Part shown: piece after piece, positions 36,840 to 43,825 of the stretch
Position numbering within the stretch: the stretch's first letter is position 1
Layout: each line of letters begins with the position of its first letter
Assembly (NCBI RefSeq): GCF_000565195.1
Contig: NZ_CP006720.1
Span: 1-64,000 of the forward strand
Length of the DNA: 64,000 nt
Origin: Spiroplasma mirum ATCC 29335
GTDB lineage: Bacteria; Bacillota_I; Bacilli_A; Mycoplasmatales; Mycoplasmataceae
Reading direction: 5' to 3'
The notes under the pieces: model-generated
Told to the model about the DNA's origin: nothing
What the model saw: only the letters and a program-made list of their open reading frames with translations
Databases searched by the model: none
Translations under genes and position numbers: made by a program

Positions 36840-37497
36840 ACTAAAAAGAAATTTAAAAGACAAGGTTGAAATTGTTGTTTATCAAAATCTGAGTTATCCT
36901 TCCCTAGGAAGATGTGGAATTTCATATTATGATTGCTAGAACGGTTGAAAAATTTACACCGAAGAAGGAATTACTATTCATACCAATTATGAAATTACCA
37001 ATGTTGATTTTCCAAATAAAACAGTGAAGGGAATTAATTTAATAACAAAAGAACCGATTGAAGATTATTATGATAAATTAGTGATTGCTGTCGGAGGGAG
37101 TTTAGATAAGTTAGATTTGCCAGGAAATGATGCTCATAATATCTATGCGCCCGCGTCTTTAGAAGCAGCTGTTAAAATTCGCGAAGAATTAACTGACAAA
37201 ATTAAAACGGTGGTTGTAGTTGGTGATGGGCCAATTGGTTTAGAGTTTTGTGAAAATTTTACCCGAAATGATAAACGCGTAATTTTAATTGAAGAACAAG
37301 ACCAAGTGTTAAAAGATTTATAAAAACAAAATAATTAACCAAATTGAACTAACAACTCGGGAAGTTGTTACATGTTGATTTAGTAATTTGTGCCTTAGGC
37401 TTCACTCCAAATACCCAATCTTAGCTGATAGTGAAATTAGTATGAGTCCTCAAGGCTCACTTGTGGTTAATGACCGGTTAGAAACAAATATGTATTA
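36793..37497 (+). pseudogene. nox: NADH oxidase / CoA-disulfide reductase remnant
   Basis: GTG 36793 begins VKVIIAATAGMTTAIKLKRN, the FAD-binding start with the glycine-rich loop damaged. RCGISYYDC corresponds to the active-site Cys segment, but a TAG follows at once. YDKLVIAVGGS, KTVVVVGDGPIGLEF (NAD loop) and VDLVICALGFTPN follow, with a stop at 37321 and frameshifts. The C-terminal dimerisation domain is missing: the sequence runs straight into a lipoprotein remnant. Confidence 0.8.
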
Positions 37498-40107: not shown

Positions 40108-40137
40108 CTGCCGATAAATCAGAATAAAATAAATAAG

Positions 40138-40163
40138 ACACCATTCATAATGGTGTTTTTTTT
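40138..40163 (+). terminator. Rho-independent terminator after rpmE
   Basis: ACACCATT (40138-40145) pairs with AATGGTGT (40149-40156), then eight Ts. Confidence 0.88.
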
Positions 40164-40218
40164 GCTTATTTCGGTATAATATTATATATTTAGAATAAAT
40201 AGAATTTTGGTGGAAAAA

Positions 40219-42118
40219 ATGGGTTTAGAGTTTAATAATATTGTTTATAAAAGATATAAAAAAATTATTTTTAATGATTTATCTTTTAGAATTAATAATA
40301 AAGAATCATTAGTCGTTTTTTTTGAAAATAAAATTAGCCAACGTTATTTTTTAAAATTTTTATTAGGAAAGAAAAAGGTTAATAAAGGGACAATTTATTT
40401 AAATAAAAAAAATATTACAACATTGTTAACGAAAGAACGTAAAATCGCTTATGTTCCCCCAGCTGCTTTCCGCTTAGGATTTTTACCAACAAAATTACGA
40501 TTAACTTATAATATTCTAAAAACACCAAAGTTTTTACACGAAGCAACAATCAAATATTTAAAAAATAAGTATGCTTATCGCGAATTATTAGCAATGGATA
40601 ATAATAAGTATCGCAAAGATTTAATTAATAAAGTTGATAAAATTCTTGAAGAATATATTTATAATTCAATTAAAATTAAAGAACAATGAATGGAAAACTA
40701 CCGGAATGGGATTAAACTTTTCCATGAAAAAGAAATTAAAAAAGTTTTAAAAGAAGATGTGACGGGAATTTTATTTCAAACTGTTAAGACTTATGTCTTA
40801 AAAAAAGAAGAATTAAGAATTCAAGAAGGTTACTTAGCCTTTTTACAAGCGTTATGAGATAAAATTTATTATATTTCAGAATTAGATTATTCGTGTGATT
40901 GTAAATATATTGCTAAACGACGAAAATTAAAAGTTAAATTATTTGCTTTTAATGAAGCAAAACTAATTTGTGAAAAATATCTTAAAATTTTACGAACAGA
41001 AATTGTTTACCAGCGTTACCATATTTTTAAAGCACGGAAATCTTTAAAAAAAATACCGTTTTAATGTTGTTAATATTTTAATGAAAGATAGCCAAAAAAA
41101 GGAAATTTTAAAAGCAATTTTAAAAACTTGAATCCAACTTTCAGATGATCAGTGGTATGAGTATAATGAGAAACAAGAACAGTTAATTGTCACTTTATTA
41201 CCCGATGAAGCTTCAATTATAAAGGGAAAAGTTATTGAGCATTTTCACAAATATCATTTAGCAATGTTAAATGACACGTTTATTACAAAAAAAGAAGATT
41301 ATAGTGAATTAATTGAGAAGGTTAAAAATAAAATTGTGAGTGTTTCCAATCAAGCTTATGACTATGTTAAAGAACTAATGTTAGATTTAAATATTAAAAT
41401 GAATTGACTAAGATTAACCAAAAATTTAAGTAGTTTTGATCACACCAAAATCCGGTTAATTAATGCATTGTTAGCTAAAAAAGAACTAATTGTTTTACAT
41501 CATACTTTTGATAATTTAACCCAGAGTGAAGCAAATGAGTTATATAATATTATTAATAATATTAAAAATTATAATCCTCAAATTTCTGTTCTTGTGGTTG
41601 TTAAAAATATTGAAAATATCAAAAATTATGTTAATGGATTTTTACTATTTGATAAACAAAACCATTATAAAGTGATTTCCCAAGTGCAGGCCACAACCAC
41701 ACCGATGACATTGGAATTATACAAAACAATATTTGCGACTTCTGAAAATATTTTTCGGGGAATTTATCATTTATCCAACCAAACAATACAATTAGATGAT
41801 ATTATCATTAAAGCGGCTAATTTACCTTTAATAAATAATCAAGAATATATAATTGCGATTAATCCAAAGTATCTTAGTTTTGAAAAGACAAAATTATATA
41901 ATAAAGAAACCACTTTACATTTTAAAGGGTCTGTTAAAACTGTTAAAAAATCAGGAGGAGCCATTGTTTGTTATTTTGAAACCCATCATAATAAGATTTT
42001 TAAATTAATTGTTGATAACCAGCAATTAAATTTACGAAAATTAACAATGATTTATTTTGAAAAAGGAGCAGTTTTGGTATATGATAAAGAAACGCAAAAA
42101 TTATTAGGAATTATCTAA
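40219..42118 (+). pseudogene. ABC-like ATPase without nucleotide-binding motifs; one A8 frameshift
   Basis: GGTGGA precedes ATG 40219. The layout follows mollicute UgpC/MsmK-like sugar ABC ATPases: FNNIVYKRYKKIIFNDLSF, GTIYLNKKNITTLLTKERK, a long Lys-rich insertion of about 280 residues, then a helical domain and a TOBE-like tail (LHFKGSVKTVKK). Every catalytic motif is replaced: Walker A reads VVFFENKISQRYF, the signature LSSFDHTK and Walker B LIVLHHTFDNL. An A8 run (41046-41053) shifts the frame once; with A7 the protein would be about 632 residues. Confidence 0.65.
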
Positions 42119-42139
42119 GATAGAAAAGAGATGTTAAAA

Positions 42140-43106
42140 ATGCGCGAAAAAATGGATTTGATCTTAGCAAAGATTAAAGAATACGACAAAATAATTTGCT
42201 TACGTCATATTTCCCCGGACGAGGATGCTTATGGCTCATCATTTGGGTTGGCTAATTTTATTAAGGAAAACTATCCAACTAAAAAAGTCCTAACTGATGG
42301 GGAAGCAAATGATAATTTATCATTTTTAGGTGTTCCCGAAAAGTTAACGGCTGAAGATTACCAAAATGCGTTAGTAATTGTCACTGATACTGCTAATACT
42401 GAACGCATTGATAGTTTGTATTGGCAAACATCCCAAGAAGTGATTAAAATTGACCACCATCCCGATGATACCCCTTATGGAGATCTTTCCTGAGTTGATG
42501 CGAAACGAATTGCTGCTTCAGAAATGGTGAGTGAGTTAGTTTTCCATAGTAAATTAAAAGTTTCACCAGAAACTGCGCGGTTGTTATACACAGGAATTAT
42601 TACTGATTCAAATCGTTTTTTATTTCGCAACACCACAAATGTGACCTTAATTCTGGCAAGTAAACTTTTAGCAACTGGTTTTGATGTGCAAGAAATTTAT
42701 CAAAATTTATATTTGGAATCATGAGCTAATGTAAAGTTTAAAAACTACTTGCAAAATTTAGTTGAAATTAGTGCGCACGGTGTTGGGTATATTAAAATTA
42801 CCGATGAGATGTTACAGCAGCATCAAATGACATATGATCTTGTTAAAGGGTGAGTTAATATCTTAGCTAATATTAAAGAAATTAAAATTTGGTTATTTTT
42901 TATCGAAAATAAAGCTGAAAATTTTGTTAGTGTTAGTATGAGAAGTCGTCACTATAATGTTAATAAGGTTGCAAAAAAAATACCATGGGGGAGGGCATTT
43001 GTTAGCAAGTGGAATTAAAATGCCAAACTGGAATTGGTGTGCAGCTATTATTAACGACTTAGATAATTTGATTATTAATAATGATGTTGTGGAGGGGGCG
43101 AATTAA
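42140..43106 (+). pseudogene. DHH/DHHA1 phosphoesterase (NrnA-like), frameshifted near its 3' end
   Basis: MREKMDLILAKIKEYDKIICLRHISPDEDAYGSS is the first metal motif (DED in place of the usual DxD), then VIVTDTAN, IDHHPDD (the DHH motif) and GIITDSNRFLF. These proteins degrade nanoRNA and pApA or c-di-AMP products. The A8 run 42973-42980 shifts the frame just before the DHHA1 glycine motif, ending at 43016; A7 would give YHGGGHLLASGIK and end at 43104. ATG 42140 is favoured over 42131 by spacing from AAAGAG. Confidence 0.8.
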
Positions 43107-43107
43107 A

Positions 43108-43692
43108 ATGTATTTTTTAAATAGAAATGCCAAAATTGGGTGAGTTGAAGTTATTACGGGTTGTATGTTTGCAGGAAAAACCGAAGAATTTATTCGCCGG
43201 ATTGTGCGCTTAAGTTATGCTAAATTTAAAATTCAGGTTTTTAAACCAGCAATTGATAATCGTTATAGTAATGATAATGTTGTTAGTCATAGCCAAAAAT
43301 CAATTAAAGCAATTTCAGTTAACAATACCAAAGAATTATTAGCAAAACTAGCACCCTATACGGATGTGGTAGGGATTGATGAAGTTCAATTCTTTGATAA
43401 TGAAATTGTGAAAGTAGCAGATGATTTAGCGAACAAGGGAATTATTGTAATTGTGAATGGTTTGGATAAGGATTTTCGAGCTGAACCATTTCTAAATGTG
43501 GAACAATTAATGAGTAAGGCAGAAGAAGTTAAAAAGTTACATGCTATTTGTGTTAAATGTGGTAATTTAGCTAACCGTACGCAACGATTAATTAACGGGA
43601 AACCCGCTAATTACCATGATCCAATTGTGTTAATTGGTGAAAAAGATAAATATGAAGCGCGTTGTCGCCATTGTCACGAGGTTGTTTACTAA
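43108..43692 (+). CDS. tdk: Thymidine kinase
   Basis: 194 residues. The P-loop GCMFAGKT is at residues 18-25, DEVQFFD is Walker-B-like, and the zinc ribbon is CVKCG with CRHCH. It phosphorylates thymidine, the salvage entry to dTTP in mollicutes, upstream of Tmk at 12598. GGAGG lies in the end of the preceding gene, two bases separating the restored stop from this ATG. Confidence 0.95.
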
Positions 43693-43825
43693 CAACTTCT
43701 TTTTTTGTAATGGGAAATGAAAGAGTAATATAATTTTAGTATGGTTTTGAATCGAAAAAAAGACATATATAAGGATATTATAGTATTGTGGAAAGAGACA
43801 TAGTTGTTTTTTTGACATAAAAATA

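Follow-up and report, generated by a model that had tools for sequence, protein, structure and literature searches.

In the synthetic minimal cell, about one gene in three had no known function. The 473-gene genome of this cell comprises essential genes and growth-related quasi-essential genes (PMC6629657), and a passage of one paper has already noted the loss of the ATP site in MMSYN1_0138 of JCVI-syn3.0, the Mycoplasma mycoides minimal cell. The next gene, MMSYN1_0139, was predicted to encode the nanoRNase NrnA (PMC4993169). Here we analyzed the first 64,000 nucleotides of contig NZ_CP006720.1 of Spiroplasma mirum ATCC 29335 (hereafter the window; genome of 1.13 Mb, G000:C1), where positions 40219-42118 carry what we call the dead ABC gene, a homologue of ATP-binding cassette (ABC) ATPases without an ATP site. 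As in the minimal cell, this gene is followed by NrnA, and the shared order therefore makes it very probably an orthologue of MMSYN1_0138, as judged from gene order and the lost ATP site. The retention of the gene in a minimal genome suggests that it is essential or quasi-essential. The passage on MMSYN1_0138 mentions neither the insertion, the CxC and YH residues, the spiroplasma orthologues nor the sugar-ATPase paralogue described below, and our search of the literature on ABC pseudoenzymes in Mollicutes found nothing relevant. We found a single paper in which MMSYN1_0138 is named. Our results suggest that the dead ABC protein is a conserved pseudo-ATPase that serves as a scaffold, and that its helical insertion, which may bind a metal, works together with NrnA (probability of about 0.6).

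In this assembly, translation with code 4 splits the gene into two open reading frames (ORFs) in neighboring frames, 40219-41064 and 41081-42118. As the latter frame is open from ~41048 onwards, the two cover ~630 codons with a single break at an A-run. The parts of the protein are the following:

40219-41064, + strand: N-terminal ORF; residues 1-100 form dead ABC lobe I, and the helical insertion follows up to two thirds of its length (profile match E 1.3e-88, model 1-298)
41060-42118, + strand: C-terminal frame (ORF from ATG 41081), with the end of the insertion, dead lobe II and an OB/TOBE-like domain (profile match E 2.9e-80, model 239-620)
40519-41383, + strand: insertion of ~285 residues between Q-loop and signature, predicted to form long helices (profile alignments, joint alignment and structure model)

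The profile of 23 orthologues found its best PDB match in ModC (3d31; E 4.5e-20), followed by PotA, CysA and MsmX-type ATPases. The match to ModC consists of two collinear blocks that flank the insertion (profile positions 3-96 and 394-574), with ABC lobes I and II in order, and the OB/TOBE-like part runs collinearly into the C-terminal domains of 3d31, 8y5g (PotA) and 1oxx. The structure model is weak in this C-terminal part, and its top Foldseek match is MsmX (6yir). These ATPases differ from the dead family in that they lack the large insertion and possess the full set of catalytic motifs. The relation required profiles to become clear: Pfam gave no ABC match for either half of the gene in the window, and searches with single sequences returned only weak matches.

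Relatives were also found among the sugar-ABC ATPases of Mollicutes (MsmK/UgpC/MalK type). Several genomes encode catalytic paralogues of ~600-730 amino acids (aa) whose motifs are intact; these proteins carry the large insertion too, and permease-like ORFs adjoin their genes. The dead and catalytic families aligned over 598 columns with hhalign (E 7.9e-29) and, after realignment, their insertions aligned with each other over 254 columns (E 9.5e-7). The two families share both lobes, the site and size of the insertion and the OB/TOBE end, and the first part of the insertion is homologous between them. On these alignments, the dead ABC family and the mollicute sugar-ABC ATPase (MsmK/MalK type) are paralogues that share the ~285-residue insertion. 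A branch supported at 100/100 sets the dead copies apart; for this reason, the ABC lobes most likely lost their function in a single event, before the three families that carry the gene (f1, f5 and f9) parted. Two sets of candidates were discarded along the way: PF00005 matches at 943 kb of this genome, which resembled a sugar ATPase with an insertion, belong to UvrA, and the proteins initially considered as the catalytic paralogue (L096-L102) turned out to be different ABC proteins.

We jointly aligned the 23 dead orthologues, which cover the three families, with eight catalytic paralogues. Every dead copy lacks Walker A (GxxGxGK[ST]), the signature LSGGQ, the Gln of the Q-loop, the D-E pair of Walker B with its catalytic Glu, the D-loop and the T-H-D of the H-loop. 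The same motifs are present in the catalytic paralogues, with small substitutions in one of them only (L112). The corresponding positions in the window, as placed by this alignment, are:

40315-40353, + strand: Walker A position, now VFFENKISQRYFL
40450-40482, + strand: Q-loop position, now YVPPAAFRLGF
41420-41455, + strand: position of the ABC signature LSGGQ, now KNLSSFDHTKIR
41486-41524, + strand: Walker B and D-loop position, now LIVLHHTFDNLTQ

The dead ABC protein would thus be unable to bind or hydrolyze ATP in the usual way, and a function through ordinary ATP chemistry is very unlikely. An earlier note on this DNA, made from the sequence alone, had proposed that a sugar-ABC ATPase with a long insertion and a TOBE-like end had kept its domain order over about 630 codons while losing Walker A, signature and Walker B, and had suggested a profile search as a check. 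The collinear match to ModC, far beyond chance, and the alignment with the catalytic paralogues bear out this ancestry.

We then determined the distribution of the gene. Profile searches identified full-length orthologues in 74 of 74 genomes of the three families (f1, 60/60; f9, 5/5; f5, 9/9), and none in any other family of the order; the 395 genomes searched across the class gave none beyond the order either. Searching with a single sequence matched 48 of 60 genomes of f1, which the profiles raised to 60. There is one copy per genome in all 14 genomes of the genus (search with the C-terminal half), relatives at 57% identity are found in S. poulsonii and S. phoeniceum, and no relative was detected in the viral contigs searched. 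Relative to the closest relative (G003), the ratio dN/dS (omega) of the two halves of the window copy is 0.066 and 0.115, and other orthologue pairs of sufficient divergence gave values of 0.065-0.17. Very close pairs (dS of 0.05 or less) were set aside, as their omega is unstable (0.26 to 1.1). Judged by these comparisons, the dead ABC gene very probably encodes a pseudoenzyme under purifying selection.

Could the gene nevertheless be a decaying pseudogene in this strain? This would account for the frame break in the window, and a second break exists in another genome (G010). The break in the window falls at:

41043-41053, + strand: A-run where the frame breaks in this assembly; intact orthologues exist (comparison with G003)

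The closest relative, whose DNA is 94% identical over ~9.5 kb, presents a single unbroken frame of 640 aa at this position. Two differences separate the window copy from this frame: a single base in the A-run at ~41046 and an in-frame gap of 24 bases. Both flanking genes, bL31 (~40072) and NrnA (~42973), also present single-base A-run differences relative to G003, each shifting the frame. Because these housekeeping-type genes are affected in the same way, the break probably represents a homopolymer sequencing error of this assembly. Moreover, the frame is unbroken in 12 of the 13 other genomes of the genus, which indicates that the break is a feature of the assembly or strain and not of the gene. 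Among the 74 genomes, the orthologues are intact in all but this one and G010, where the break is independent, lies at a different place and leaves frames of 467 and 197 aa (L095, G010:C1:925-927 kb). The low omega of both halves contradicts decay, as does the full length of the gene across three families, and we consider the pseudogene explanation highly improbable. The earlier note had argued that random decay would not have kept this length, and selection in spite of the missing ATP motifs (0 of 23 orthologues retain them) agrees with its argument. The single homopolymer change that it had reported was also found, as a trait of this assembly or strain.

The constraint on the dead ABC protein has moved to the insertion. 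The lobes of the catalytic family have mean pairwise identities of 65% and 71%, against 19% for the insertion, whereas in the dead family the lobes fall to 26% and 24% and the insertion, at 28%, is the best-conserved part. Besides M1, only five residues are invariant across the 23 orthologues, and all five lie in the insertion (residue numbers of Tyr353-His354 are those of the S. poulsonii protein):

40858-40860, + strand: invariant Asp214 (23 orthologues, three families)
40894-40902, + strand: invariant CxC (C226 and C228), in the predicted turn that joins two of the insertion's long helices (23 orthologues; without counterpart in the catalytic paralogues)
41252-41257, + strand: invariant Tyr353-His354 (23 orthologues)

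None of the five has a counterpart in the catalytic paralogues. The structure model places the CxC, with moderate confidence, in the turn between the second and third long helix of the insertion. These patterns make the insertion the likely functional part of the dead ABC protein. From the residue types, D214, the CxC and H354 could tentatively be seen as a metal site, for instance for zinc. Fold searches with the insertion model matched unspecific helical bundles only, for which Z values under ~13 mean little. Among the catalytic sugar-ABC ATPases themselves (L103-L112), the insertion has ~250-400 residues and is poorly conserved next to highly conserved ATPase lobes; we found no described function for it.

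The descent of the gene, OB/TOBE domain included, would fit a regulatory pseudo nucleotide-binding domain (NBD) that pairs with the catalytic paralogue, or docks on permeases, and tunes sugar transport. Indeed, degenerate NBDs are known as dimer partners in heterodimeric ABC transporters. However, the dimer-forming D-loop and signature are gone, and no permease gene adjoins the dead ABC gene at any locus examined. In addition, the insertion-bearing catalytic paralogue was above threshold in only 22 of 60 genomes of f1 and in no genome of f5, and it was below threshold in this genome and in 13 of 14 genomes of the genus, all of which possess the dead copy. The dead copy therefore cannot be an obligate partner of this paralogue, and a role in tuning sugar transport is unlikely.

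The neighborhood points instead to NrnA. The dead ABC gene belongs to a unit with NrnA and tdk that is bracketed in the window by terminator-like sites (40135-40159 and 43678-43699):

40135-40159, + strand: terminator-like hairpin and T-run between bL31 and the dead ABC gene (site scan; also in G003)
40176-40181, + strand: TATAAT, candidate -10 element of the dead ABC-NrnA-tdk unit (direct reading; same in G003), not picked up by a scan for two hexamers
42131-43018, + strand: NrnA-type DHH/DHHA1 phosphoesterase, immediately following the dead ABC gene, its frame shifted near the 3' end in this assembly (the G003 orthologue has DHH and DHHA1 domains)
43081-43692, + strand: thymidine kinase (tdk), last gene of the unit, with a terminator-like site at 43678-43699 (ORF list and site scan)

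At every locus scored (~45 in three families), the distance from the dead ABC stop to the NrnA start falls between -14 and +33 bases, and the pair is kept where tdk has been lost (L082). In one genome of another genus (L080; G018, genus g5), the order dead ABC-NrnA-tdk-prfA is retained though the genes upstream of bL31 are unlike those of other genera. We tentatively suggest, from this gene order, that the dead ABC protein works with NrnA, possibly in physical partnership.

The scaffold reading would then involve the following steps. A mollicute sugar-ABC ATPase of the MsmK/MalK type, which had an OB/TOBE domain and, in its helical subdomain, a long insertion, would have been duplicated and become a pseudoenzyme once. 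Its ABC lobes would now form the frame for the inserted helical domain, and this domain would carry the function. The conserved site of this domain (D214, CxC at 226 and 228, YH at 353-354) may hold a metal, for example zinc. The protein would be co-produced with the DHH nanoRNase NrnA and act as its adaptor or scaffold in the last steps of the breakdown of RNA, and maybe also DNA, oligonucleotides. The earlier note had suggested a pseudo-ATPase with a structural role: a pseudo-ATPase under selection is what we found, and a structural role may hold for the lobes, but the data favor the insertion as the functional part and NrnA as the partner.

Several points weigh against this reading. NrnA homologues are present in families without the dead ABC protein, so NrnA does not depend on it everywhere. 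The order rpmE-X-nrnA-tdk-prfA could have been kept through operon inheritance rather than partnership, and the altered site of the dead ABC protein may still bind nucleotides in some residual way. Finally, the AlphaFold models of the whole protein and of the insertion, built from six sequences, reached predicted local distance difference test scores (pLDDT) of 49.7 and 62.7, respectively, which is too weak to judge the proximity of D214, the CxC and H354.

The position of the unit between bL31 and prfA in most genomes would also suit a nucleic-acid-binding or translation-associated factor that is not specific to NrnA and resembles ABC-F or Rad50 by convergence. The outline resembles that of Rad50/SbcC with its nuclease partner Mre11: long antiparallel helices split the ABC head, a cysteine motif marks their turn, and the gene downstream encodes a nuclease. 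This likeness is one of outline only, as the dead ABC protein descends from a TOBE-type importer ATPase, lacks the ATP motifs that ABC-F and Rad50 need, carries CxC instead of the CxxC of the zinc hook and neighbors a DHH nuclease rather than Mre11/SbcD. Together with the unspecific fold matches of the insertion, these differences make such a factor rather unlikely. A bolder proposal, which we regard as a long shot, is an ATP-independent Rad50-like clamp rebuilt from a transporter ATPase: the two dead lobes would hold a long helical hairpin that bears the invariant, metal-binding CxC/Asp/His site, dimerizes or grips short RNA or DNA and feeds the DHH nanoRNase. If true, the clamp would be a required part of oligonucleotide recycling across these Mollicutes, the minimal cell included.

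The dead ABC family offers a clear-cut example of ABC ATPases in which all catalytic motifs disappeared, apparently in one event, while selection persisted and the constraint moved to the inserted domain. The gene is apparently one of those without a known function in the minimal cell, and a descent, five probably important residues and a candidate partner can now be named for it. These three elements, and the unlikely ATP chemistry, make its function directly testable.

Two minor observations were made around these genes. Where families lack the dead ABC gene, NrnA homologues were present in 15 genomes, none with tdk within 1.5 kb on either side, and such families often contain tandem NrnA-like DHH genes that overlap by a few bases (L121, L123, L126, L129, L130 and L134). 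Upstream of the locus, positions 36900-37430 of the window hold pieces of a pyridine-nucleotide-disulfide oxidoreductase (CoA-disulfide-reductase-like), and S. poulsonii presents a frame of 463 aa for a similar oxidoreductase upstream of its dead ABC locus (L073:632-2023).
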